This document shows, piece by piece, positions 7,375-21,883 of a DNA stretch of 64,000 nucleotides. The translations under genes were made by a program, and so were the position numbers. How positions within the stretch are numbered: the stretch's first letter is position 1; each line of letters opens with the position of its first letter. Under the pieces are notes generated by a model, which worked only from the letters and a program-made list of their open reading frames with translations, did not search any database and had not been told where the DNA came from. This DNA is from Candidatus Eremiobacterota bacterium (GTDB lineage Bacteria; Vulcanimicrobiota; Vulcanimicrobiia; Vulcanimicrobiales; Vulcanimicrobiaceae): positions 903,300-967,299 of the forward strand of contig JAFAYE010000001.1 in assembly GCA_019240525.1 (NCBI GenBank), written 5' to 3'.

Positions 7375-8802
7375 CTAACGCACGAGCGGCAAAACGTTGC
7401 TGGGCGTCAGTGGATAGAACGTCATCACGATTACCGCGACGGCGCAAATGGCCGCGCTCGCCCACGCGAGCGGTACGAACGGGCGTGCCGCGTGCGCTTC
7501 GCCTGGCGAAACGGCGTACATCATGCGAATCACTTTCGCGTAAGCATACAGCGAAATCGCGGTTCCGATGATCAGGAGGACGCCCAGCCAGAGAGAGCCG
7601 CCGGAAACCGCGCTCGAAAGAATGAGAATTTTTCCGAGAAAGCCGGCGGTGGGCGGCAGACCGGCCAGCGCGAGTAAAAAGATCGTCATCGCAGCGGCGA
7701 GCCATGGCCGGCGGCGTCCAAGGCCGCGATAATTCGCAAGGGTCGCACCCTCCTCGTCCTCGCCCGAAATGGCCGCGGCAACGGCAAACGCTCCGAGGTT
7801 CATGAACGCGTATGCCGTTAAATAATAAATGGCGTATCGTAGCCCCAGCGACGTCCCGCCGGCGAGCGCAACGAGGATGTAACCGATCTGCGCTACGCCC
7901 GAATATCCGAGCAGTCGTTTCAGATCGCGTTGCGCGAGCATCCCCACGTTTCCCGCGATCATTGAAATCCCGGCGACGATCCAGACCGGCAGCAACATCT
8001 GGTGCGCCGTGCCCAAGGGCAATGCGGCATAGGTGAAACGCGCGAAAACGGCGAGCGTTCCGGCTTTGGTGACAACGCTCATAAAGGCCGTCACCGGCAA
8101 CGGCGCCCCTTCGAAAACGTCGGGCGTCCAGGTATGAAACGGCACGAGGCTCAACTTGAAGACCAAACCGATCAAAAACATTCCCGAGCCGACCCAAAAG
8201 AGCGGATTGCTTGCAAGCGCCGGATTTGCAATGTCGGAGAGTCGAATGCTGCCGGTCGCACCGAAGAGCAATGCGAATCCGAAGATCAAGAAACCCGTCG
8301 CCGTGGAGCTCAGAATGAGGTACTTCAGCGCCGATTCGCGCGCCGTCTTCCGGTCGACCGCCGCGCAGAGCGCGTACAGTCCGAGCGATAAGAGTTCCAA
8401 ACCCAAAAAGATCATCATGAGATTTGCCGCGCCCGCCATGAGCATCGCCCCGCACGCGCTCCAGAGCATGATCGCGCTCATTCCGGCGACGCGCTGCGCG
8501 GGTCCGATAACGCCGTAGAGCGCGAGCGAGCCGGCCGTAGCAATCAAAATAATCTCTTGAAAAACGGTCGCGAATCCCCCCACCATGAAGCCGCCGAAGA
8601 AGGCATCGTAGTTGTGGCCGAACTGCCGAGCCGCAAGCACGCCGGCGACGATCGTCCCAAGAAGCGAGATCCCGATGGAGAGATAGCGCTCCGTCGTCCG
8701 ACGCGAGAAGAGATCGGCAACGAGCACGGCGAGGGCCGTCACCGCAACGACGCCGACCGGAACGATCGCCGACCAATCGAGGTGCGTAAACGGAAGCTTC
8801 AT
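7375..8802 (-). CDS. nuoN: NADH-quinone oxidoreductase subunit N
   Basis: 475 residues, about 14 membrane helices; one of the three antiporter-like proton-pumping subunits of complex I. The Mrp-antiporter core is visible (KAPARESALKYLIL-type region, here FLIFGFALLFGATGSIRLS, and the functional lysine segments around LVPFHTWTPDVFEGAP). It is the last gene of the nuoA-N operon and its ATG overlaps the nuoM stop by 4 bp (ATGA). Confidence 0.95.
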   Translation of the reverse strand: MKLPFTHLDWSAIVPVGVVAVTALAVLVADLFSRRTTERYLSIGISLLGTIVAGVLAARQFGHNYDAFFGGFMVGGFATVFQEIILIATAGSLALYGVIGPAQRVAGMSAIMLWSACGAMLMAGAANLMMIFLGLELLSLGLYALCAAVDRKTARESALKYLILSSTATGFLIFGFALLFGATGSIRLSDIANPALASNPLFWVGSGMFLIGLVFKLSLVPFHTWTPDVFEGAPLPVTAFMSVVTKAGTLAVFARFTYAALPLGTAHQMLLPVWIVAGISMIAGNVGMLAQRDLKRLLGYSGVAQIGYILVALAGGTSLGLRYAIYYLTAYAFMNLGAFAVAAAISGEDEEGATLANYRGLGRRRPWLAAAMTIFLLALAGLPPTAGFLGKILILSSAVSGGSLWLGVLLIIGTAISLYAYAKVIRMMYAVSPGEAHAARPFVPLAWASAAICAVAVIVMTFYPLTPSNVLPLVR

Positions 8803-10172
8803 GGCCGCAACAAGGGCGCCGGGTAAACGCCCAGCAGAACGAGCGCCGCAAGCAACGGGGAAAGGGCAAGCCCTTCAAGCCACGTGAGGTCGCTGCGGTG
8901 GGGAACGTCCTCAACCTGCGGTCCGTTCATGAGATCTTGGTAGAGACGAATCATATACGCGGCTGCGATGATGATGGCGATGAGCGCGACGACGACCGGC
9001 CAGGTAAATCCGGCTTGATAGACCCCGATGAGAATGACGAGCTCGCCGACGAATCCCGCTAGTCCAGGCAATCCGAGCGCTGCAAGCGCCGCGATGCAGA
9101 GCGCTCCCGCTAGACGCGGGTTGTTCGCTCCCAAACCGCCTAAACGCAGCAGCGAGCGCGTCTCTTCGCGCTCCTCGAGATAGCCCAGCGTCAAGAACAG
9201 CGCCGCCGAGAAGAGTCCATGCGCGATGACGTAGACCAGCGCGCCTTTGAGCGCCAGGGCATTTCCGGAGGCAATCGCGATCACGATCAGCCCCAAGTGC
9301 GACAGCGACGAGTATGCCACGATTCGCTTCGCGTCGCTTTGGACGAGCGCGACCACGGCACCGTAAATAAGCGAAATCGCGCCGAGCACCATGAGCGGCA
9401 GCGAGTATTCGCGCACGTATTCGGGCAAGACGATCAGTGCGATCGCCAAGAACCCATAGAGTCCCGCTTTCGACTGCACCGCCGCAACGACCGCAACCAT
9501 CGGCGCGGGCAGTCCGCTATACGTCGGCGGCATCCATGTGTGGAGCGGCCAGACCGGCGTCTTCACGAGGAACGCAAAGGCGAAACCGGCGTAGATCCAT
9601 GGCGCCCATGTTCCGATCAGTTGGACGCCGCTACGACCGATCACGTCGGTCGACCCATCGATCACGCCAAACGCCGCCGTGGCCAGTAAGAGCGTCAGTC
9701 CACCGGCGAAGTTATAGATGAAGTATCGCCACGCGGTCGCGGGGTGCTCGCCCCAACCGAGCAATCCGAAAAAGACCGGAACGAGCATCAGATCCCAAAA
9801 CAGCGCGAAGACGAGCAGGTCCTTTGCCAGAAAAAGGCCGAGCATCGTTCCTTCGAGCATCAGCATCAGGGCGACGAAGTCGCGCGTCCGCTCGACGCGC
9901 GCCGTTGCCACGGCCGAAGCCGTGCAGAGCGCAAGCATCAGCGCGATCCAAAACGAAACGGACGTCGCCCCGAAATGGAAGGCGGCAACGAACGGACGCG
10001 AGAGCCAGCGAACGCTCCACTCGGAGTGACCGCCAACGATCAACAGCGCGAAGGTTACCAGTGCGACTGCCGTGCCGATCGCGCGCGCCGGGCGTTCGGA
10101 GCCGCGCGGAAGCACGAACATCGCGCCGCCGGCGGCGATCGGGAGCAGGATCGTTAGAAGAACGGGCGCCAT
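8799..10172 (-). CDS. nuoM: NADH-quinone oxidoreductase subunit M
   Basis: 457 residues from the ATG that overlaps the nuoL TGA by one base; the longer open frame upstream lies inside nuoL. Antiporter-like membrane subunit with the characteristic EGTMLGLFLAKDLLVFALFW region, WPLHTWMPPTYSGLPAP and SHLGLIVIAIASGNALALKG. It pumps protons in the distal membrane arm of complex I. Confidence 0.95.
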   Translation of the reverse strand: MAPVLLTILLPIAAGGAMFVLPRGSERPARAIGTAVALVTFALLIVGGHSEWSVRWLSRPFVAAFHFGATSVSFWIALMLALCTASAVATARVERTRDFVALMLMLEGTMLGLFLAKDLLVFALFWDLMLVPVFFGLLGWGEHPATAWRYFIYNFAGGLTLLLATAAFGVIDGSTDVIGRSGVQLIGTWAPWIYAGFAFAFLVKTPVWPLHTWMPPTYSGLPAPMVAVVAAVQSKAGLYGFLAIALIVLPEYVREYSLPLMVLGAISLIYGAVVALVQSDAKRIVAYSSLSHLGLIVIAIASGNALALKGALVYVIAHGLFSAALFLTLGYLEEREETRSLLRLGGLGANNPRLAGALCIAALAALGLPGLAGFVGELVILIGVYQAGFTWPVVVALIAIIIAAAYMIRLYQDLMNGPQVEDVPHRSDLTWLEGLALSPLLAALVLLGVYPAPLLRP

Positions 10173-12103
10173 CAGTGCACCCCTCCGGCCGTGAAGGCAT
10201 AGTAGACGATGAAGCACGCCGCACCGAAGACGAGAATGAGCGCGTAGGCGCGGACGAAACCGGTTTGAAACGAACGGACGGCGTCGCCCAGCCACCGTGC
10301 CCAAAAAACGAGATCGCGCACGGCGCCGTCGAGCACGTGCGGGTCGAGCACCCGTCCGAAGAACATTCCCAACCGCTGCGCGGTTCGTACGAAGACGACG
10401 TCGATGAGCTCGTCGATATAGAAGCGATTGGTCAATATCGCGGGCGTGCGGGCTGCCTCATTCTCGAGTCGCGCCGCCGCGTACTGCAAGGCGTTCGCGC
10501 TCGCGTACCGCCACCATGCCACTGCGAAGCCCACGATGACCAGGGCGAAGACGATCGCGGAAGTCATGCCTTCGGAGATTGCCGGCGGAGCTAGGCTCGA
10601 AACAGGCGTCGGTTGCGCACCGAATTGCGTTGCAAAAAATCGCTCCCAGGGAGAATTCGAGCCGAACATCAGCGCGCCGCCGACGGCGACGGTCGGCACG
10701 ACCAAGACCGCAACGGGCACGTTCATGATCCAGCTCGGTGAATGCAAATGCGAGGTGTCGAGCTCGCCGCGATACTCGCCCAAAAACGCGAGAAAGAGCA
10801 ACCGGAACATATAATAGGCCGTGATTGCCGCGGTGAGGATGCCGGCGCCATACAGCCAGGGATGCCCGTGCACAAGGGCGCCGTAAATGACTTGATCCTT
10901 CGAAAAGAATCCACTGAAGCCCGGGACGCCGCAGATGGAGAGCACCGCGGTCAGCATTGCCCAGAACGCAAACGGCATCTTCTTCCACAAGCCGCCCATT
11001 TTGCGCACGTCCTGTTCGTTGGCAAGAGCGTGGATCACGAGACCCGCAGTGAGGAAAAGCTGCGCCTTGAAAAATGCATGCGTAAAGAAATGCGCGATTC
11101 CACCTTCGTACGCGCCGACGCCGACGCCCATGATCATATAACCGATCTGCGACATCGTCGAATAGGCCAGGATGCGCTTAATATCCCACTGCGCCATGCC
11201 CAAAACTGCGCCGGTGACCGCCGTTACACCGCCGACCGTCCCAACCAGCATCTGCGCTTGCGCGCTGTGATTCCAGAGCGGTGCGCAGCGCGCGACCAGA
11301 TAGACACCTGCGGTCACCATCGTTGCGGCGTGGATCAGAGCGGAGACCGGCGTGGGGCCCTCCATCGCATCGGGCAACCATGTATGCAGCGGCACTTGCG
11401 CCGATTTCGCCGCGGCGCCGATGAAGAGCGTCGCGCAGATCCAAAAAAGCAGCGTGGTTCCGAGGGTCGCGCCGGCAGCGAATGTATCGCCGAAACCTAT
11501 CGAATGGACGTTGGCGAAGATCAGAAAAATCGCAAACATCATGCTGGCGTCGCCGACGACGTTGATGACGAACGCTTTTCGCGCGGCAGCGACGGCCGAC
11601 GGCCGCTCGAACCAAAATCCAATCAGAAAATACGAGGCGACGCCGACCAGGCCCCACCCAACCAGCAGCCCGACAAAGTTATCGGAGAGCACCAACGTCA
11701 GCATTGCGAATACGAAAAAGCTCATGTAGGCGAAGAATCGCGCGTACGCGCGATCGCCGTCCATGTAACCGATCGAGTAAAAGACGATCAAGAAGCCAAC
11801 GCCGGTGATGACGAATGTCCACAGCACCGAGAGCGGATCGAGCAACAGGCCGAACTCAAACCCCGGCATCCATGCCATCAGCGATTGGCTCGCGCCCAGT
11901 GCCGAGCCGGCGTTCTGCGTCGCATCGTGCCACGAGAGCGCCGCTAAAACGAACGACGCACCAACCAGCCCGGAGGCGAGCCAGCCCGCAACCGCTTTTA
12001 GCTGGGGTCCGAACGCCCAACATATGACCGCTCCCGCCAACGGCAGCAGCCACAAGGCCACGAGCATCGGATAGGATCCGCTCACCCCAAGGACGTGGTG
12101 CAT
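10172..12103 (-). CDS. nuoL: NADH-quinone oxidoreductase subunit L
   Basis: 643 residues, about 16 membrane helices with the long C-terminal lateral helix extension that clamps NuoM and NuoN. Recognisable blocks are the Proton_antipo_N motif DPLSVLWTFVITGVGFLI, VPLHTWLPDAMEGPTPVSAL and YSTMSQIGYMIMGVG. Most distal proton-pumping subunit. It lies 12 bp after nuoK. Confidence 0.96.
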   Translation of the reverse strand: MHHVLGVSGSYPMLVALWLLPLAGAVICWAFGPQLKAVAGWLASGLVGASFVLAALSWHDATQNAGSALGASQSLMAWMPGFEFGLLLDPLSVLWTFVITGVGFLIVFYSIGYMDGDRAYARFFAYMSFFVFAMLTLVLSDNFVGLLVGWGLVGVASYFLIGFWFERPSAVAAARKAFVINVVGDASMMFAIFLIFANVHSIGFGDTFAAGATLGTTLLFWICATLFIGAAAKSAQVPLHTWLPDAMEGPTPVSALIHAATMVTAGVYLVARCAPLWNHSAQAQMLVGTVGGVTAVTGAVLGMAQWDIKRILAYSTMSQIGYMIMGVGVGAYEGGIAHFFTHAFFKAQLFLTAGLVIHALANEQDVRKMGGLWKKMPFAFWAMLTAVLSICGVPGFSGFFSKDQVIYGALVHGHPWLYGAGILTAAITAYYMFRLLFLAFLGEYRGELDTSHLHSPSWIMNVPVAVLVVPTVAVGGALMFGSNSPWERFFATQFGAQPTPVSSLAPPAISEGMTSAIVFALVIVGFAVAWWRYASANALQYAAARLENEAARTPAILTNRFYIDELIDVVFVRTAQRLGMFFGRVLDPHVLDGAVRDLVFWARWLGDAVRSFQTGFVRAYALILVFGAACFIVYYAFTAGGVH

Positions 12104-12115
12104 CAGGCCGCCCGG

Positions 12116-12421
12116 TTAACCATGCAGCACGTTTATCTCGTCGACATCCACGTATCTCTCGGGGCGGAACGTCGTCACGACGATCGCCAAACCAATCGCC
12201 GCCTCGGCGGCCGCCACGGTAATTACGAGAAAGGCAAAGATGTGACCGGAGTTCTGCAGCCAAACGCGCGCAAATGCAATGAAGAGCAGGTTGGCCGCAT
12301 TGAACATAAGCTCGATACTCATCAACATGACCAGCGGATTGCGGCGAACGATGACGCCGACGACACCGATGAAGAAAAGCACGCCCGCGAGCGTGATATA
12401 GTTCACGATCGGCACGGGCAT
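12116..12421 (-). CDS. nuoK: NADH-quinone oxidoreductase subunit K
   Basis: 101 residues with three membrane helices, the normal length. The conserved helix-2 and helix-3 acidic residues are present in LMSIELMFNAANLLF and ITVAAAEAAIGLAIVV. The ATG at 12421 shares one base with the nuoJ stop; a TTG one codon earlier is less likely. Confidence 0.95.
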   Translation of the reverse strand: MPVPIVNYITLAGVLFFIGVVGVIVRRNPLVMLMSIELMFNAANLLFIAFARVWLQNSGHIFAFLVITVAAAEAAIGLAIVVTTFRPERYVDVDEINVLHG

Positions 12422-13008
12422 CAATCGCTGCCCTCGCGCAGAATCGCCTCACGCATCGCTCGATCGGCGCGGCGTTCGGACCGGCGCTCCGATTCGTGCA
12501 TCTCTTCACCGCCCAAGGTGATGACGCCGATAACCGCGACCATGAGAATCAGGGCTGTAACCTCAAAGGGAAGCAGTTGCACCGTGAAGAGCGCGGCGCC
12601 GAAGTCACCGACGCTGCCAAAGACGTTCGGCGCGCCCACGGGACCGCTGGGTACGTGCTGCGTTACCGGTATCGCGTTCGAAACGGCGTAGATGAGGAAG
12701 CCGAGCGCAACGAAAACGAAGGCGCCACCGGGAAGCCAAACCTTCGGCAAGCGATTGGGTCCCACCGCGAACGGCGCGACTCCGCTGCTCAGCAGCGCGA
12801 TGACAAAGACAAAGAGCACCAAGATCGCGCCGGAGTAGACGATAATTTGGATAACCGCTAAGAACTCCGCCGAGAGCGTCACGTAGGTGACGGCAAGCGC
12901 GGCGAAGTTCAGCAACAGCGCGACGACGCTGTACACCGGCTTACTCGCCGAAATCGTCCAAACGGCGCTCGCGACGAGAATCACCGCGAGCAACCAAAAC
13001 TCAATCAC
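12421..13008 (-). CDS. nuoJ: NADH-quinone oxidoreductase subunit J
   Basis: 195 residues, five membrane helices with the conserved SAEFLAVIQIIVYSGAILVL segment, whose pi-bulge helix couples quinone chemistry to pumping. A charged C-terminal tail rich in Arg and Glu follows the last helix. Overlaps nuoI by 8 bp. Confidence 0.95.
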   Translation of the reverse strand: MIEFWLLAVILVASAVWTISASKPVYSVVALLLNFAALAVTYVTLSAEFLAVIQIIVYSGAILVLFVFVIALLSSGVAPFAVGPNRLPKVWLPGGAFVFVALGFLIYAVSNAIPVTQHVPSGPVGAPNVFGSVGDFGAALFTVQLLPFEVTALILMVAVIGVITLGGEEMHESERRSERRADRAMREAILREGSD

Positions 13009-13636
13009 GCAAGGCGTCCTGGGCGGACGGCTTGAGCAGCGCTAAGCCTTTGCGCTGTTTGAGGAGAACCTCGCCGCGAAAAGTTGCCGAGTAGCCGGGA
13101 TCGATCTGCGTCGTCGACTTGATCGCTGCAACCCGGCCAAGGTCCCCGGGAATGCCGCCGGGACGGTCGTCGGGCGGCGCTCCAACCCCGGCCTCGGGTG
13201 GAACGATCAAGCGATCCTTGTCATAAATAAACGAGCCGCGCCGATAGTCCGCCATCTCGAAGCGTGGCGTCAGCACGATCGCGTCGGTTGGGCACGCCTC
13301 TTCGCACATCCCGCAGAATATGCAGCGCAATTCGTCGATTTCGTACCGCGCCGCGTAGCGCTCTCCCGGCGAGTGCCGGTCTTCGGGAGAATTCTCCGCA
13401 CCGATGACGGTAATAGCGTTAGCCGGGCAGACGCTCGAGCAAAGCTCGCAGCCGATGCAACGCTCCTTGCCGTCATCATAGCGCCGCAGCTCGTGAAGCC
13501 CGTGGAAACGCGGCGCGTGCTGTTTCTTGACCGAGGGATACTGAATCGTCGGCCGCCGGCGAAACATGAAGCCGAATGTAATCGAAAGGCCTCGCAGCAC
13601 CGCCGAGACGTTCAAAAGATGTTTGCGTTGCGCCAT
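13001..13636 (-). CDS. nuoI: NADH-quinone oxidoreductase subunit I (2x[4Fe-4S])
   Basis: 211 residues. Two ferredoxin motifs, CIGCELCSSVCP and CIFCGMCEEACP, bind clusters N6a and N6b that pass electrons toward NuoB. The N-terminal amphipathic segment (RGLSITFGFMFRRRPTIQYP) anchors it at the membrane. The C-terminal tail of about 60 residues beyond the ferredoxin core is somewhat longer than in E. coli. It sits 6 bp after nuoH. Confidence 0.96.
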   Translation of the reverse strand: MAQRKHLLNVSAVLRGLSITFGFMFRRRPTIQYPSVKKQHAPRFHGLHELRRYDDGKERCIGCELCSSVCPANAITVIGAENSPEDRHSPGERYAARYEIDELRCIFCGMCEEACPTDAIVLTPRFEMADYRRGSFIYDKDRLIVPPEAGVGAPPDDRPGGIPGDLGRVAAIKSTTQIDPGYSATFRGEVLLKQRKGLALLKPSAQDALRD

Positions 13637-13642
13637 ACCCTG

Positions 13643-14623
13643 CTATCCTCGATATGCCACGACGATGGCGGTGACAATCAGATTGAGCATCGCCACCGGC
13701 AAGAGCACCTTCCAGCCAAAGGCCATCAGCCGATCGTAGCGTAGCCGCGGCAGCGTCGCCCGCAGCCACATGTAAAAGAACATGAAGCACGCTACCTTGA
13801 TGACGAACCAGCCGACGCTAGGAATCGCCGTGATGCCGAAAGGCGCGTTCCAGCCGCCGAAAAAGAGCAACGTCGCGATGCACGATATGGTGAGCATGTT
13901 GACGTATTCGGCGATGAAGAATAATCCAAAGCGCAGACCCGAATACTCGGTGTGGAATCCGGCAACGAGCTCCGTTTCGGCTTCGACGAGATCGAACGGT
14001 GCGCGGTTCGTCTCGGCCACCGCGGTGATGACGTAGATGATGCAGCCGACGAACTGCGGGATGAAAAACCACCAGCGGGCCTGCGCGCCCACGATACCGT
14101 CGAGCGACGTCGTGCCGGCGAGGATCAGCACCCCGATCAGCGAGAGCGACATCGCGAGCTCGTAGCTGATCATCTGGGCGGTCGAACGAACGCTGCCCAA
14201 GAGCGGATATTTCGAGCCCGACGCCCAGCCGCCGAGGCAAATGCCGTACACGCCGAGCGACGTAATCGCCAGAATGAATAGAATACCGGCATTGACGTTG
14301 CCGATCGCCCAGGTCGCCCCCGAACTCGAGGCACCGAACGGAATCACGGCATACACGGAAAACGCGGTGACGAGCGAGATGAACGGCGCGAGTTTGTACA
14401 GCAGCGGGTCGGCAGTCTCCGGCGTAAGATCTTCCTTGAGAATCAGTTTCGCGGCGTCGGCCGCGGGCTGAAGCAGCCCCCAAGGGCCGACGCGATTGGG
14501 ACCCGGCCGCAACTGCATCCAACCTAAAATCTTGCGCTCGGCGAGCATCGCGTAGGCAAAAGCTGTAACGACGACGAGCAGCAGGATTGCGGATTTGACG
14601 AGCACGACGACCCATACGAGCAT
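13643..14623 (-). CDS. nuoH: NADH-quinone oxidoreductase subunit H
   Basis: 326 residues, eight membrane helices; forms the quinone-entry chamber with NuoB and NuoD. Conserved features are AERKILGWMQLRPGPNRVGP (30-49 region) and the acidic quinone-site loop TNRAPFDLVEAETELVAGFH, followed by EYSGLRFGLFFIAEY. Four bp separate it from nuoG. Confidence 0.96.
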   Translation of the reverse strand: MLVWVVVLVKSAILLLVVVTAFAYAMLAERKILGWMQLRPGPNRVGPWGLLQPAADAAKLILKEDLTPETADPLLYKLAPFISLVTAFSVYAVIPFGASSSGATWAIGNVNAGILFILAITSLGVYGICLGGWASGSKYPLLGSVRSTAQMISYELAMSLSLIGVLILAGTTSLDGIVGAQARWWFFIPQFVGCIIYVITAVAETNRAPFDLVEAETELVAGFHTEYSGLRFGLFFIAEYVNMLTISCIATLLFFGGWNAPFGITAIPSVGWFVIKVACFMFFYMWLRATLPRLRYDRLMAFGWKVLLPVAMLNLIVTAIVVAYRG

Positions 14624-14627
14624 GGCG

Positions 14628-16598
14628 CTACGCTCGCATTCCGGCGAGCCACGGGTCGTGCAGCCACGTTCCCCCGCCCGAGAGAAGCGTTACTTCGCGC
14701 GGCCCGACCGAGTCCGGGCCGAATCGCGCCTCGCCAAGGTCAAAGTCCGGCGCACCGGCTGCCGCCAGCGAAACGATCGCCCGATGAACCTCCTCCGGCG
14801 CTGGAACCTCAACCTCCAGCTGTCGTGCGAGTCCTGCGATCATCTCGAGATCGGAGTACGCAAACTCCGGGGCTGCCAGCGATGCATTGACCGGCAACAG
14901 ATCGCCGCCGATGTTGAGGGTCGTGCCCTTCTTCTCGAATGCGCCGAGTGCCGGCAATACGAGCGTTGCGCGGCGTGCGGTTTCCGTCATGAAGAGCTCG
15001 CTTACCACGAGGAAGGGAACGCTCTCGAGCGCCTTTTGCGCGTTCGCCGGATCGTTGGCGTTGCGCGCCGGATTGAGGGCGAAAATTGAAAGCACGGTCA
15101 GATCGCCCGAGCGCGCCGCATCGAGCATCCCGTAACCGTCGAGTCCGGGCCGCGCCGCCGCATAGCCGGGCGCGCTAAACGGCAGCATGCCCATCAGTTC
15201 GGCACCGCGCGCGTTCGCTTGTTCCCCGGCGATATACGCCGACAGTTCCGTAACGTCCGCGAACGCCGCGGCGTAACGGCGCCCCAACTCCAGATCGAGA
15301 CCATCCCAAACGATTGCAATGCGCGATGCCTCGCCCACCGCATGGCGCGCATCCGCGGGGCCGGCGGCCTGCACGATCGTCGTTCCGCGTCGCGCGGCTT
15401 TTCGAATCCGTAACCACAGGACGGGCGCGCGTTCGGCCAGCGATTCTCCGGCAATGACCACTGCCTGCGCGTCGTCGATGCGATCGAGCGGCGCAGCGTG
15501 CCGTCCGGGTGTCGCCTGGCGTTGGCTCCCGGCGCGCCAATCGAGATTGCTCACGCCGATCGAGCGAAAGACGTGCTGCAAAGCATACGCTTCTTCGTTG
15601 GTCAAACGGCCGCCGCCGATCGCGCCGACGGCGCCCGGACCACGCGATGCGATCGCCTCTCGAATCGCCGTCGCCCAGAGGGTGAACGCGTCGTCCCATC
15701 CGACCTGCACCAGGCGGCCGTTGTGGCGATAGAGCGGCTGCGCCAGCCGATCGGGCGATCCGTAAAAGCCGACGTTGTAACGGCCGCGATCGCAAAGCCA
15801 GCCGTCGGAGATGAGATCGTCTTCAACGGACATCGTCCGCAGCAACGTGCCGTGCCGGACGTCGGCGAACTGTTGGCACCCGACCGCACATTGCGTGCAG
15901 CTCGTCTGCGTACGCGTCAGGTCCCAGGGCCGCGACTTGAACCGATAGGTCTTCGAAGTCAGGGCTCCGACCGGGCAGAGTTCGGTGACGTTCCCCGTGA
16001 AATTGTGACGATACGGATGACCGGTGGCCGTTGCGATAATGTCGCGCGCGCCGCGATCTTTCACGACGAGCTGACGTTCTTCGGCGATAATGTCATCAAA
16101 ACGCACGCAGCGCTGGCAGACGATGCAGCGCTCTTCATCGAGCACGATGGTCGGGCCCAAATCGACGGCCTTGGGCTTTGCCAGCTTAGGATCGGCCACG
16201 TCCGATGTCGCTCGCGCGTATGCCATCGAATAATCTTGCAAATCGCATTCGCCGCCTTTGTCGCAAATCGGACAATCCAGCGGATGATTGACGAGAAAAA
16301 GCTCGAGCACGAGGGCGCGCGCCGCCTCGACACGTGCGCCTCCGGTCCGCACCACCATACCGTCGGTCGCCGCAGTATTGCAGGCGATTTGGAGCTTGGG
16401 CATGCCTTCGATCTCGACCATGCAGATACGGCAGAGGCCCGCCGGGCCCAATTTGGTGTGATAGCAATAGATCGGAATCTGCTGCTTGACCGTCTTGGCC
16501 GCTTCGACGAGCAAGGTGCCCTTTGGAACGGTGACCGGCACTCCGTCGATCGAAATGTTCACCATCTCCGCGCCGGTCGCAAGTAATGGCGCGCTCAT
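14628..16598 (-). CDS. nuoG: NADH-quinone oxidoreductase subunit G
   Basis: 656 residues from the ATG that overlaps the nuoF stop as ATGA. The N-terminal part binds iron-sulfur clusters: the [2Fe-2S] ligands around YCYHTKLGPAGLCRIC, the His/Cys cluster HPLDCPICDKGGEC, the CIVCQRC block, and a further CTQCAVGCQ group. The remainder is a molybdopterin-oxidoreductase-like domain that has no cofactor in complex I. At 656 residues it is shorter than E. coli NuoG (about 900), as in many other phyla. Confidence 0.95.
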   Translation of the reverse strand: MSAPLLATGAEMVNISIDGVPVTVPKGTLLVEAAKTVKQQIPIYCYHTKLGPAGLCRICMVEIEGMPKLQIACNTAATDGMVVRTGGARVEAARALVLELFLVNHPLDCPICDKGGECDLQDYSMAYARATSDVADPKLAKPKAVDLGPTIVLDEERCIVCQRCVRFDDIIAEERQLVVKDRGARDIIATATGHPYRHNFTGNVTELCPVGALTSKTYRFKSRPWDLTRTQTSCTQCAVGCQQFADVRHGTLLRTMSVEDDLISDGWLCDRGRYNVGFYGSPDRLAQPLYRHNGRLVQVGWDDAFTLWATAIREAIASRGPGAVGAIGGGRLTNEEAYALQHVFRSIGVSNLDWRAGSQRQATPGRHAAPLDRIDDAQAVVIAGESLAERAPVLWLRIRKAARRGTTIVQAAGPADARHAVGEASRIAIVWDGLDLELGRRYAAAFADVTELSAYIAGEQANARGAELMGMLPFSAPGYAAARPGLDGYGMLDAARSGDLTVLSIFALNPARNANDPANAQKALESVPFLVVSELFMTETARRATLVLPALGAFEKKGTTLNIGGDLLPVNASLAAPEFAYSDLEMIAGLARQLEVEVPAPEEVHRAIVSLAAAGAPDFDLGEARFGPDSVGPREVTLLSGGGTWLHDPWLAGMRA

Positions 16599-17860
16599 AC
16601 CGCGCGAACCTCCGGCGCCGCGACGACGCGGGATTCGAACTGCTCGGGGAAGCGTTGCATCACCGACTTGAGAAACGGCTCGATGGAGTCGCCGAGCGCA
16701 CAAAGATTCAAGCCGGTAATCGAGCCCGCCACTCGGCGCAGCATTTCGTAATCGCCGGGAACGCCGCGATGATGCACGAGGCGCTCGAGCACGCGCTCCA
16801 TCCAACTCCCGCCCTCACGGCAGGGCGTGCACTGGCCGCACGATTCGTGCGAGAAAAAGCGAACCAAATTGTACGCAGCTTTCACGAAATCGGTGGTGTC
16901 GTCGAAGACGACAAAGGCACCGGAGCCAAGCATCGATCCCGCCTTGGCCATGCTCTCGTAATCATATGGCCAATCGAGATGCTCCTCGAAAATGCAGGCC
17001 GACGAACCTCCGCCGGGCTGAACCGCCATCAAGGTGCGTCCCGGACGCAAGCCGCCGGCGAGATCGATCAGCTCGCGCACCGTCGTTCCAAGCGCAACTT
17101 CGTAGTTGCCGGGATTACGCACGTGCCCCGAAACCGAAACGATCTTATAACCTTTGCTGCGCTCGGTACCGGCCGCTGCGAACCACTCCGCGCCTCGCTC
17201 CAAGATCGGCACGAGATATGCAAGCGTCTCGACGTTGTTAACGACCGTCGGCATGCGATACAGGCCTTCGACGGCCGGAAACGGCGGCTTGAGTCGCGGC
17301 TCGCCGCGTTTGCCTTCCAGCGAGTTGAGCAACCCGGTCTCCTCGCCGCAAATATAAGCGCCGGCGCCGCGGTGAACCGTCACCTCGAGATCGTAACCGG
17401 TGCCGAAGAGATTGGCTCCGACGTAACCCGCCGCACGCGCCTGCGCGAGGGCCGCCGAGAAAATCTCGTACCCGCGCTTGAATTCACCGCGAATATAAAT
17501 AAAGGCGTGATGCGAGGCGATTCCATAGGCGCCGATCAGCATTCCCTCGAGAATCAGATGCGGCGTCTGCTCCAGGAGCATGTGGTCCTTGAACGTGCCG
17601 GGCTCGGCTTCGTCGGCGTTGCAGACAAGGTAGCGCGGCTTCTGGTCCTTCGGGAGAAAAGACCATTTTCGGCCCGTTGGAAAGCCGGCGCCTCCGCGAC
17701 CACGCAGCCCCGATTTCTCGGCGATGTCGAGCACCTCGGCGGGTTGCATCGTTCGCACGACGCGTTCCCATTGTTGGTAACCGCCGCGCTGCCGATAAGC
17801 GTCGATGCCGAGCATATCGACTTCGCCGATTCCAACGGTCAAAACCTTAGTGACCGGCAT
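16595..17860 (-). CDS. nuoF: NADH-quinone oxidoreductase subunit F (NADH/FMN site)
   Basis: 421 residues. The NADH/FMN-binding glycine loop GLRGRGGAGFPTGRKW, the flavin region CNADEAEPGTFKD, and the N3 [4Fe-4S] motif CGQCTPCREG are all present. This is the electron entry point of complex I. Its start overlaps nuoE by 14 bp and its stop overlaps nuoG by 4 bp. Confidence 0.97.
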   Translation of the reverse strand: MPVTKVLTVGIGEVDMLGIDAYRQRGGYQQWERVVRTMQPAEVLDIAEKSGLRGRGGAGFPTGRKWSFLPKDQKPRYLVCNADEAEPGTFKDHMLLEQTPHLILEGMLIGAYGIASHHAFIYIRGEFKRGYEIFSAALAQARAAGYVGANLFGTGYDLEVTVHRGAGAYICGEETGLLNSLEGKRGEPRLKPPFPAVEGLYRMPTVVNNVETLAYLVPILERGAEWFAAAGTERSKGYKIVSVSGHVRNPGNYEVALGTTVRELIDLAGGLRPGRTLMAVQPGGGSSACIFEEHLDWPYDYESMAKAGSMLGSGAFVVFDDTTDFVKAAYNLVRFFSHESCGQCTPCREGGSWMERVLERLVHHRGVPGDYEMLRRVAGSITGLNLCALGDSIEPFLKSVMQRFPEQFESRVVAAPEVRAV

Positions 17861-18617
17861 GGGTGCCCTGTTCGTCGATCGTTTCGACGACGGAACGCGA
17901 ATCGACCACGGCTCGCTCGCTCGTCGCGGTGAAGCGATAGACGCTGCGATTGATGATGTTGTCGAGCATGATGACGCCGCTGCGGTCGCCGACCCCGCCT
18001 GCGTTGTTTGGGTTCGGAACGCCCTCGGCGCCGCGCGACTTCCTTCCCGACGCTATCTGCGCGTCGTGCGGTATCGCCCACGTCGGTCCGGGCGCTTGCG
18101 TTTGCGCCATCGGCGCGACGGAGTACTCGCCGGAGGCCATCGCGGCGATTAGCTCGTCGATTTTCTGCGGTGTCAGATCGTAGACAAATTCCAGATTCAC
18201 CTGCATGCACGTCGCGCGGTCGCACGCCGCCAAACATTCGACTTCCTCGTACGAGAAGAGCCCATCGGCGGTCGTCTGCAAATGGCCGACTCCAAGCTTC
18301 TCGCGAAAGTACGCCATAAGGTCGTCGGCGCCGTTAATCATGCAGGCCAATCCTCGACAAACCTGCAGCATATACTTCCCGACCGGTCGGCGGTACAGCA
18401 GTGTATAGAACGAAACGGCGCCCTCGACTTCCGCCGGCGTGATTTCGAGAATCTCCGCGGCCGCGTGGACCGCTTGCGAGCTAACGAAACCTTCGTGCGC
18501 TTGGAATAGATGCATGAGCGGAAGCAGCGCCGACCGCTTCTGCTCGTACTGCGCTACGATTCGGTCGCATTCGGGCCGAAGTCGTTCGACCAATGCCGGA
18601 AAGTTATTGTCCGTCAT
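17847..18617 (-). CDS. nuoE: NADH-quinone oxidoreductase subunit E with C-terminal extension
   Basis: 256 residues. The first about 165 are a normal thioredoxin-like NuoE: VCRGLACM and ECLAACDRATC supply the [2Fe-2S] N1a cluster cysteines (C-x4-C and C-x3-C). The remaining roughly 90 residues are extra, of low complexity at first (Gln/Pro/Ala/Gly-rich) and then a segment with DNIINRSVYRFTATSERAVV. Family members usually stop near 160-180 residues, so this tail is unusual. The nuoD-nuoE junction is a 4-bp ATGA overlap. Confidence 0.94.
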   Translation of the reverse strand: MTDNNFPALVERLRPECDRIVAQYEQKRSALLPLMHLFQAHEGFVSSQAVHAAAEILEITPAEVEGAVSFYTLLYRRPVGKYMLQVCRGLACMINGADDLMAYFREKLGVGHLQTTADGLFSYEEVECLAACDRATCMQVNLEFVYDLTPQKIDELIAAMASGEYSVAPMAQTQAPGPTWAIPHDAQIASGRKSRGAEGVPNPNNAGGVGDRSGVIMLDNIINRSVYRFTATSERAVVDSRSVVETIDEQGTHAGH

Positions 18618-19834
18618 CGGTCCACCTCGCCGAAGACCGGGTCGAGCGAGCCGATCATGACAACGAGGTCGGCGATCAGGTTTCCCGGCGCGATTCCTTT
18701 GAGAGCCTGCAGATTGTACATGCTCGGCGGACGCGTACGAATGCGGTACGGACGATTTTCGCCGTTGCTGACGATGTAGTAGCCGAGCTCGCCGCGCGGC
18801 GATTCAATCGCCTGATAGACGTCTCCCGGCGGAACGCGGAAGCCTTCGCTGATCAACTTGAAGTGATGGATCAGCGCTTCCATCGAGAGGGCAATGGTCT
18901 CCTTCGGCGGCAGTGCGACCTTCGGATCGTCGATCATCACCGGTCCCGGCGTGTCGAGCCGGCGGCGCGCCTGCTCGACGATTCGCATCGATTCCTCCAT
19001 CTCATCGAGACGGACTAAAAAGCGCGCGTAGGCGTCCCCTTCGGCGCGCGTCGGTACGTCGAAGGCGTACGTTTCGTATCCGCTATACGGAAAAGCTTTG
19101 CGCACGTCGTAGGCGACGCCGCTTCCGCGAAGGCTCGGTCCGGTGACGCCCCACTCGAGAGCATCCTCCGGCTTGAGAACGCCGATATCGATCGTCCGGT
19201 CCTGAAAGATGGGATTCGCCTGCAGCAGACCGCGCAATTCGCGGATGCGGCCGGGGAATTTTTCGATCAACGCATCGAGCCGCGTCACGTAGCCGTCCGG
19301 AAGATCGCCGTTGAGACCGCCAACGCGAAGGTAATTAGGATGCATCCGGGCGCCGCCGGAGGACTCTTGCAGATCGAGAATATTTTCGCGCAGATCGAAG
19401 CAGTAAAAGAAGACCGAAATTGCCCCGAGATCGATACCGTGCGTACCGAGCCAGACGCAATGCGACGCGAGCCGCGTAAGTTCCATCGAGAGCACGCGGA
19501 TTGCTTGCGCGCGCGGCGGGATGCCCTCGCTGATCCCGAGCAGACGTTCGACAGCCAGCGCGTAACAGAGCGCATTGGATGACGGTGCAAGGTAATCCAT
19601 GCGCTCGATCACGGTCTGCGCTTGAGTCCAAAAGAGGCTTTCCGCCGTTTTCTCGATCCCGGTGTGGAGGTATCCGATTTCGGGATCGGCTTTGACGACG
19701 CTCTCGCCATTGATCTCCAAGACGATTTGAAGAACGCCGTGTGTCGAGGGATGCTGCGGCCCCATCGACAGCACCATGCTATTGCCGCTCTGGCTCACGA
19801 CCTCGGAGCCGAGCGGCGTCGCGTCGACGGTCAT
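18614..19834 (-). CDS. nuoD: NADH-quinone oxidoreductase subunit D
   Basis: 406 residues from the ATG overlapping the nuoC stop; upstream in-frame sequence belongs to nuoC. The 49-kDa/hydrogenase-large-like subunit that lines the quinone site: GPQHPSTHGVLQIVLEINGE near the N-terminus, EIGYLHTGIEKTAE, and the C-terminal ESPRGELGYYIVSNG plus PVFGEVDR ending. NuoC and NuoD are separate genes here, unlike the fused nuoCD of E. coli. Confidence 0.97.
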   Translation of the reverse strand: MTVDATPLGSEVVSQSGNSMVLSMGPQHPSTHGVLQIVLEINGESVVKADPEIGYLHTGIEKTAESLFWTQAQTVIERMDYLAPSSNALCYALAVERLLGISEGIPPRAQAIRVLSMELTRLASHCVWLGTHGIDLGAISVFFYCFDLRENILDLQESSGGARMHPNYLRVGGLNGDLPDGYVTRLDALIEKFPGRIRELRGLLQANPIFQDRTIDIGVLKPEDALEWGVTGPSLRGSGVAYDVRKAFPYSGYETYAFDVPTRAEGDAYARFLVRLDEMEESMRIVEQARRRLDTPGPVMIDDPKVALPPKETIALSMEALIHHFKLISEGFRVPPGDVYQAIESPRGELGYYIVSNGENRPYRIRTRPPSMYNLQALKGIAPGNLIADLVVMIGSLDPVFGEVDR

Positions 19835-20421
19835 TGCTGCCGCGCTCGCTTCACTTCTTCTTGCAATGCTTCGAGCGTACGCCCCGACGGCGGCGTACCG
19901 GCAACGACGTTGCTTTTGTTGGCAAAGCTGGGCCGCGGTGCGCGCTCGCGCGCCGGCCCGCGCAACGGATAGTCCTTGCGCAGCGGATGTCCTTCCCAAT
20001 CGCGCGGCATCTGGATGCGACGCAGATCCGCGTGCCCATCGAAGGCGATGCCGAAGAGATCGTAGACCTCACGCTCGGCCCAATCCGCCGATCTCCACAG
20101 ATCCATGACGCTGGGCACGTGCTCGTCGGCTTCGATGCCGCACAGAAGACGCAAGCGCACCGGAGTTCCGATCTCGGCCACCGAGGCGCGCGCGGAAGGC
20201 AGCTTGAGCAGATGGTAGACCACGTCGAACCGCGGCCGGCGCTCCAAGTAGTCGACCGCGCCGAGATCGAGCAAAGTCGAACCCTCTGCTTTGAGCGATT
20301 GCAGGCGTGCGCGCAGCTCTACGAGCGGAATGCGTTCAATCGCGGCGTCGTCGATCGGCGGGCGCAGGCTCGGCGGGTCGATCGCAGCGCCGGAAAGAGG
20401 CGGAGTCTGCGAGCTAGGCAC
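19831..20421 (-). CDS. nuoC: NADH-quinone oxidoreductase subunit C
   Basis: 196 residues. The 30-kDa subunit signature AEREVYDLFGIAFDGHADLRR is present, followed by the basic DWEGHPLRKDYPL. The C-terminal 30 residues (Arg/Gln-rich) go beyond the core. It is 23 bp downstream of nuoB and 4-bp coupled to nuoD. Confidence 0.95.
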   Translation of the reverse strand: MPSSQTPPLSGAAIDPPSLRPPIDDAAIERIPLVELRARLQSLKAEGSTLLDLGAVDYLERRPRFDVVYHLLKLPSARASVAEIGTPVRLRLLCGIEADEHVPSVMDLWRSADWAEREVYDLFGIAFDGHADLRRIQMPRDWEGHPLRKDYPLRGPARERAPRPSFANKSNVVAGTPPSGRTLEALQEEVKRARQQ

Positions 20422-20444
20422 GATGCACGATGAAAAGAAGCAGC

Positions 20445-20924
20445 TTAGGCTCGCGCAAGAATCCCACCGCGACCACCTTCACGAATCTGCTGTTGGATGA
20501 GATTGACGGCATACAGCAGACCGTCGGGCGTCGGCGGACAGCCCGGAACGTAGACGTCGACCGGAATGATCGTATCGACGCCTTGAATGATCGCATAGTT
20601 GTCGAAAATGCCGCCTGAACTGGCGCAGGCTCCCATGGAGATTACCCATTTCGGATCGGCCATTTGATCGTACAGCCGCTTCACGACCGGGCCCATCTTT
20701 TGCGCCACGCGTCCCGAAACGATCATCAGATCGGCTTGACGCGGCGAGCTGCGAAAGACTTCAGAACCAAGCCGCGCGATATCGTATTCCGGCGCGGTAA
20801 CGCTCATCATCTCGATCGCGCAGCAGGCTAACCCCATGGTCAGCGGCCATACCGAGGAGCTCTGCGCCCAGCGGGCAACGTCGTCGAGGCGCGCCAGCAT
20901 GAAGTGCCCGGGCTCTACCGCCAT
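20445..20924 (-). CDS. nuoB: NADH-quinone oxidoreductase subunit B (cluster N2)
   Basis: 159 residues. The four N2 [4Fe-4S] ligands are visible: tandem C34-C35 in [11 protein letters not shown]100 in [10 protein letters not shown] and C129 in [11 protein letters not shown]2 donates electrons to quinone. The start overlaps nuoA by 10 bp. Confidence 0.97.
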
Positions 20925-21268
20925 ACGAAGCCGCCCTTCTTCCAGACGTACGCGTAGCCGATCGCAAGAACAACGATGAAAATTACCATTTCAAGCAAAC
21001 CAAATGTGCGCAGCGCGTGCATTTTGACCGCCCAGGGATAGAACGACGCCGCTTCGACGTCAAAGACGACGAAGAGCATCGCAATCAAGTAAAAGCGCAC
21101 GGGAAAGCGGCCGGCCACCGGCGAGGTGGGTTCGACGCCGCATTCGTAGGCTTCGCGCTTATGCGCGTTAGGCTTGGCGCGCGCCAAAAGGCCGGGCAAG
21201 ACGCTAAAGAGCAACGCCGCTAGAAAGGCGACGCACAGGTAGATTGCGACCGGACCGTAGGGATTCAT
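20915..21268 (-). CDS. nuoA: NADH-quinone oxidoreductase subunit A
   Basis: 117 residues with three membrane helices and the conserved loop [11 protein letters not shown] that contacts the quinone channel, followed by [18 protein letters not shown]. First gene of the operon. No Shine-Dalgarno-like sequence is seen before the ATG; the space is taken by a perfect palindrome (Rex-type operator), so the transcript may be leaderless or start inside the operator. Confidence 0.95.
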
Positions 21269-21271
21269 GGC

Positions 21272-21289
21272 TTGTGAAAGTTTTCACAA
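21272..21289. promoter_or_regulatory. Rex (redox-sensing repressor) operator upstream of nuoA
   Basis: TTGTGAA-AGTT-TTCACAA, an exact match to the known Rex consensus TTGTGAA-n4-TTCACAA; the full palindrome with flanking C/G spans 21271-21290 with perfect 9-bp arms. It ends 3 bp from the nuoA ATG. Rex releases DNA when NADH is high, which would derepress complex I. A Rex gene is not in the window. Inference from motif only. Confidence 0.75.
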
Positions 21290-21376
21290 GCGGTTGGGTA
21301 AACCTGGCGAACGCGAAAGCGAGCAAGGATGTGCCCGTAAGCGCCCGCCGGGAACTTCATCATACGAGCGCGTAGA

Positions 21377-21883
21377 ATGCCCACGATGCGCCAGGCCGTT
21401 CTGGGACTTTTGTTGCTCTTCGCTCTCGGCGACGGATGCTCGGCGCCCCCCAACGTCGTCGGCGTCCAAGACTTCGGTCGCGTTGCCGGCCGAGTGCTCG
21501 ACGCTATGACCAATCGTCCGATTCCAAACGCGCTGGTATCGATCGGTTCGCTCTACACCACGCGGGCCGACGTCAACGGGGGCTTCCGGCTGCGGGCAGT
21601 TGCCGGCGACCAAACCGTCACCGCGCGTGCGGCGGGCTATTCGACCGCGACGGCCGACACCACGATCCCTAAAGACGACACCGTCTCCATCGGCTACATT
21701 CGGCTCGTTCCGCTGACCTATCCGGCCGGCCAGCCGACGCTCGCTCCACCGCCGACGCCGACGCCCCGCCCGACGGCGCCGTCGTCGGCCACGATGAGCG
21801 CGCCGAGCCCAACACCCTCGAGTCCATTGGCGCCGCCCTCCGTCTCACCCGCATTCGCCACGCCGAACGCGCTGCCGAGCTAA
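21377..21883 (+). CDS. Small lipoprotein with carboxypeptidase-regulatory-like domain
   Basis: 168 residues from the ATG at 21377 (a second ATG three codons later is possible). A lipoprotein signal peptide ends in the lipobox LGDGC (C21). Residues about 34-112 look like a carboxypeptidase-D regulatory-like beta-sandwich: GRVAGRVLDAMTNRPIPNALV, then NGGFRLRAVAGDQTVTARAAGY. The last 50 residues are Pro/Thr/Ser-rich linker. Probably an envelope-anchored binding or structural protein. It is divergent from nuoA, 108 bp apart, and ends 7 bp before the convergent antiporter gene. Confidence 0.7.
   Translation: MPTMRQAVLGLLLLFALGDGCSAPPNVVGVQDFGRVAGRVLDAMTNRPIPNALVSIGSLYTTRADVNGGFRLRAVAGDQTVTARAAGYSTATADTTIPKDDTVSIGYIRLVPLTYPAGQPTLAPPPTPTPRPTAPSSATMSAPSPTPSSPLAPPSVSPAFATPNALPS

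Follow-up and report, generated by a model that had tools for sequence, protein, structure and literature searches.

The perfect inverted repeat directly upstream of nuoA in this Candidatus Eremiobacterota genome is, with high probability, a Rex operator, at which the Rex protein encoded in the same genome would block the promoter of the nuo operon at a low NADH/NAD+ ratio and from which it would be released at high NADH. The assignment is based on the site itself, on the rex gene and on the linked conservation and loss of the two.

The repeat, GCTTGTGAAAGTTTTCACAAGC, occupies positions 21270–21291 of the window (the whole stretch of DNA analysed, 64,000 nucleotides) and consists of 10-bp arms, GCTTGTGAAA and TTTCACAAGC, separated by a 2-bp GT centre. 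The original prediction described a palindrome of 20 bp with 9-bp arms; the repeat is indeed perfect, but it extends to 22 bp, of which the 20 bp form the inner part. The core, TTGTGAAAGTTTTCACAA at 21272–21289, reads TTGTGAA-AGTT-TTCACAA and shows, as had been stated, no mismatches to the Rex consensus TTGTGAA-n4-TTCACAA, and the 22-bp site has the form of the inverted repeat characteristic of Rex operators, TTGTGAAnnnnTTCACAA. Three base pairs lie between the core and the nuoA ATG (21268–21266, minus strand). This is the predicted distance, but the core abuts the start codon and is not, as was proposed, on it. The genes downstream of the operator, which serve NADH oxidation and respiration, form a complete nuoA-N operon, and all 14 of the complex I genes expected were found by Pfam and NCBIfam. 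The features concerned are as follows.

21270–21291, no strand assigned: candidate Rex operator, a perfect inverted repeat with its core at 21272–21289, kept before nuoA in the genomes that have rex and nuoA (see below).
20915–21268, minus strand: nuoA, the first gene of the complex I operon (Pfam PF00507, NCBIfam NuoA), with its ATG at 21268–21266.
7375–20924, minus strand: nuoB-nuoN, the remainder of the 14-gene operon, with Pfam matches for all subunits.

A divergent gene at 21377–21883 (plus strand), separated from the operator by about 86 bp, could be served by the same control region. It encodes a small, lipoprotein-like product containing a carboxypeptidase-regulatory-like domain.

The site at nuoA is the only exact consensus match in the whole 2.8-Mb genome, which has one further site with two mismatches. 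From base composition, 3.4e-5 exact matches are expected by chance per 64 kb, or about 0.0015 per genome. The palindrome was also considered as a repeated element, and this was rejected on the evidence of the single exact copy.

The rex homologue implied by the prediction was found as a single gene (G000:C1:1313765-1314424) between hemL and hemA, forming a hemL-rex-hemA cluster. Judged by its sequence, the product is a bona fide Rex. It matches the N-terminal winged-helix domain PF06971 with 38.7 bits (cut-off 27) and the NCBIfam Rex model NF003995 with 195 bits (cut-off 126), and it resembles eight distinct PDB Rex sequences over most of its length, among them 5zz5 (E 3e-38 over residues 13–216), Thermus aquaticus Rex 3ikt and the B. 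subtilis-type 2vt2. The likeness to characterised Rex proteins is full-length and includes the NAD(H)-binding domain, and the recognition-helix region, QIRKDL...RRGxGY, is conserved. When Rex of families f1, f2 and f3 (L078-L107, L391-L394, L341-L350) were compared with those of distant members of the phylum and with solved structures, a two-residue insertion (LLGHTVAS versus LAG--VKAS) was seen in this class, in the turn that leads into the recognition helix. The Rex proteins of the same class have LGPLG where the distant members and solved structures have FGEFG.

The distribution of rex and of the site was compared in 103 genomes of the order (Eremiobacterota), 96 of which supplied 97 nuoA upstream regions. 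Searches for rex with the protein and with a Pfam profile gave the same picture, weak partial matches aside. The operator is present in all 31 genomes that have both rex and nuoA, with 12–14 of the 14 consensus bases and always 2–4 bp before nuoA, and is absent from 57 of the 65 genomes without detected rex (Fisher 4e-18). When only genomes at least 90% complete were counted, the site was present in 22 and absent from none with rex, and present in four and absent from 34 without it (1e-12). The prediction presupposed that close relatives would have the palindrome at nuoA, and it is conserved there wherever rex is present. A NuoABCD tree requires 12 changes for rex and 11 for the site. The independent-pairs test, which is conservative, gave 4–6 concordant pairs and no discordant ones (median p 0.03), and a Pagel test of correlated evolution on the same tree (own implementation) gave a likelihood ratio of 45.7 (p = 3e-9, 4 degrees of freedom). 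From one species to the next, rex and the site are retained or lost as a pair, and control of complex I by the NADH level of the cell is therefore very probable.

The site is short and genomes of one order are related, and it might thus be supposed that the palindrome arose by chance, or that it is conserved by common descent without function. Such an explanation is scarcely credible in view of the chance expectation given above and of the repeated joint changes of site and rex on the tree; moreover, in rex-less genomes the site decays while the flanking nuoA stays. The decayed palindrome is still visible in some rex-less relatives, such as TTGCGAAAAAAATCCCAA in G069, the congeners of which (G068 and G070) possess both rex and an undamaged site. 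In many rex-less genomes, hemL adjoins hemA and rex has been cleanly removed (L226-L253, L267-L273). In G086 and G087 (L135, L139), rex-less members of a mostly rex-containing genus, the operator is replaced at the same place by TGTTATACAAT, a near-consensus -10 element.

In eight genomes the operator is present although no rex was detected (G016, G074, G076, G058, G019, G082, G063 and G062). In G016, G074 and G076, hemA is missing too; hence the hem locus, in which a rex gene may lie, is missing from these assemblies. G058 retains a 41-codon rex remnant between hemL and hemA (L267:2059-2181), and its operator carries one mutation. In G019, G082 and G063, hemA follows hemL with no rex, and the operators have 14, 13 and 12 of the 14 bases, respectively; these three genomes require either a recent loss of rex or another reader of the site. 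The simplest order of loss would be rex first and the operator afterwards.

The inner TGTGA-n6-TCACA of the site is also an exact fit to the consensus of CRP, and its half-sites are like those of CRP/FNR operators in general. With nine CRP-type DNA-binding domain matches in the genome, the site could be assigned to a CRP/FNR-family regulator, in which case it should follow such a regulator from genome to genome. However, all 103 genomes have CRP/FNR-type domains, whereas the site is found in a minority and tracks the presence or absence of rex. The outer TT/AA and the n4 centre are as expected of a Rex site, and close rex-less relatives have a decayed site. Because the CRP/FNR family is in every genome and the site follows rex, this assignment was rejected as very improbable.

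The sequence before nuoA bears on how a Rex operator at this position would act. A Shine-Dalgarno core was found at -20 to -4 in 0 of the 14 genera with the operator; in 384 kb of this genome, by contrast, such sequences are easily seen at -14 to -8 in front of other genes. The original prediction placed the site where a ribosome-binding site would be and held that it either also shapes the leader or precedes a leaderless mRNA. Nothing resembling a ribosome-binding site is present, and the leaderless alternative is favoured. The only conserved element upstream of the operator is AGG, starting at -39 to -37 in all 14 operator genera; among genera without the operator it starts at -39 to -35 in 27 of 28. 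A modest excess of AGG at -37 to -35 is also seen upstream of other first genes in this genome, and the element may belong to a promoter type specific to the lineage. When the central six bases of the operator are taken as a -10 element, AGG falls inside the -35 hexamer with a spacer of about 17 bp, which gives the following putative elements.

21278–21283, minus strand: proposed -10 element AAACTT within the operator, -15 to -10 from the ATG, a weak match to TATAAT.
21301–21306, minus strand: proposed -35 element CAGGTT, which holds the conserved AGG and lies 17 bp upstream of the central hexamer.

The same six central bases are TATAAT or TAAAAT in the distant relatives G134, G135, G139 and G140, and in rex-less genera the likeness to TATAAT is greatest for hexamers starting at -18 to -15 (2.0–2.4 matches; background 1.1, sd 0.2). 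From the AGG spacing, these centres and the -10-like peak, the best model places the operator on the -10 region: the -10 element probably lies under the operator, and the mRNA, starting at the ATG or a few bases from it, would have little or no leader. The hexamers of the window lineage itself match TATAAT poorly, and AGG is not known as a sigma-70 -35 core. A sigma-54-like GG-n10-GC was seen by eye upstream of nuoA in certain rex-less members of the genus, all in one sub-clade.

Alternatively, the Rex operator could lie in a 5' leader, with transcription starting well upstream and an mRNA hairpin by the ATG affecting translation. The RNA of the site folds into a 9-bp hairpin directly before the ATG (MFE -17.5 kcal/mol, z -2.0). 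In the sister family f3, the sites lie 21–63 bp before the predicted nuoA start with SD-like sequences in between, so leaders occur in relatives. However, a palindromic operator folds as RNA regardless, and upstream of nuoA in the operator genera only the AGG near -37 is conserved and the Shine-Dalgarno core is lacking. In addition, changes in the arms between clades are mostly one-sided: GTCACAA in g32/g35, TTGTTCA in f2 and AATCACAA in g2/g24. These changes are not compensatory; thus the DNA sequence and not the stem is conserved, and an RNA hairpin as the conserved feature was rejected. A leader with such a hairpin is therefore unlikely in the window lineage.

With the operator on the -10 region of a leaderless transcript, a Rex dimer would bind when the NADH/NAD+ ratio is low and, since the operator would cover the -10 element, would keep RNA polymerase off the nuo promoter, holding complex I low. 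As NADH accumulates, Rex would release the operator and complex I would be made. By analogy with Streptomyces, Rex would be expected to bind the site, to respond to NADH and to act as a repressor, which sets the direction of control. The exact site, the rex gene and their linked conservation support the predicted control of complex I through a Rex operator.

Further sites had been envisaged at other redox genes (cydA, ndh, adh), but nuoA is the only conserved strong target found in the order. Exact consensus matches across the 103 genomes number 16, all at nuoA. Sites with one mismatch elsewhere than at nuoA number 14, compared with five for a reversed-pattern control. Those inspected comprised three transposon copies in G005, an intergenic site common to the congeners G053 and G054, and a site in G071 at the 5' end of an oxygenase-like ORF; none was conserved across genera and they were rejected as further targets. 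The looser pattern TTGTGA-n6-TCACAA, with up to two mismatches allowed, matched 29 sites in this genome, compared with 23 for the control, and is hence unable to reveal further targets. Of the targets found in the order, nuoA-N therefore appears to be alone in being both strong and conserved; weaker ones may exist. The chances are about even that Rex is here a dedicated one-operon switch, with nuo as the sole strong conserved target, the operator on the -10 element of a leaderless transcript, repeated joint loss of regulator and site (about a dozen changes on the tree) that has left intermediates in the course of decay, and a class of Rex with the two-residue insertion before the recognition helix. 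A one-operon regulon, if true, would be unusual for Rex.

Beyond the order, 11 of 11 rex-containing genomes examined in family f3 have TTGGGA/TTGAGA-n6-TCACAA sites with 12–13 of the 14 bases, and G117, the sole rex-less genome of that family, has no site at nuoA. In G139, which belongs to a distant class of the phylum, TTGTGATAAAATTCACAA precedes a nuoA ATG by 3 bp. In G134, G135 and G140, of the same class, one nuoA copy has TTGTGC-TATAAT/TAAAAT-TCACAA upstream. Three rex-containing genomes outside the class (G114, G132 and G145) showed no site at nuoA, where the nuoA starts are uncertain. The operators are asymmetric in a conserved way, with one half-site canonical and the other changed, being TTGTTCA-n4-TTCACAA in f2 (L170-L173) and TTGGGA-n6-TCACAA in f3 (L351-L362). 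In G134-G140 (families f14/f15, genomes of 7–8 Mb), several TTGTGA-n6-TCACAA sites lie right before other start codons, which suggests that the Rex regulon may be wider in that class.

No report of Rex in Eremiobacterota was found in a literature search that did not reach the main comparative Rex-regulon study, in keeping with the expectation that such control is new in this lineage. The proposed mechanism is that of known Rex biology, here in a new phylum, and would extend NADH-sensing control of complex I to a little-known, mostly uncultured soil phylum. The evolutionary evidence is about as strong as sequence alone allows, and the repeated joint loss of rex and site in close relatives provides a natural deletion set for a respiratory promoter losing its redox switch.

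In Streptomyces avermitilis, Rex represses nuoA1-N1 and NADH weakens its binding to DNA, and in Streptomyces rex is cotranscribed with hem genes (PMC5355995). The system described here shares with it Rex, a TTGTGAAnnnnTTCACAA-type operator in the nuo promoter, rex beside hem genes and complex I as a target. However, the Rex of Streptomyces acts on many targets (atp, cyd, hem, ndh2, wblE), whereas no other strong conserved target was found here. The S. avermitilis nuoA1 operator is the degenerate TTGTGACCTGCTTCACAT with a footprint at -42 to -16 over the -35 region (PMC5355995), whereas the site in the window is exact, 3 bp before the ATG and probably over the -10 region. The operator consensus of Staphylococcus aureus Rex, TTGTGAAW4TTCACAA (PMC2883068), is identical, but that Rex acts on genes induced without oxygen, for fermentation and nitrate respiration, whereas the target here would be the complex I operon.
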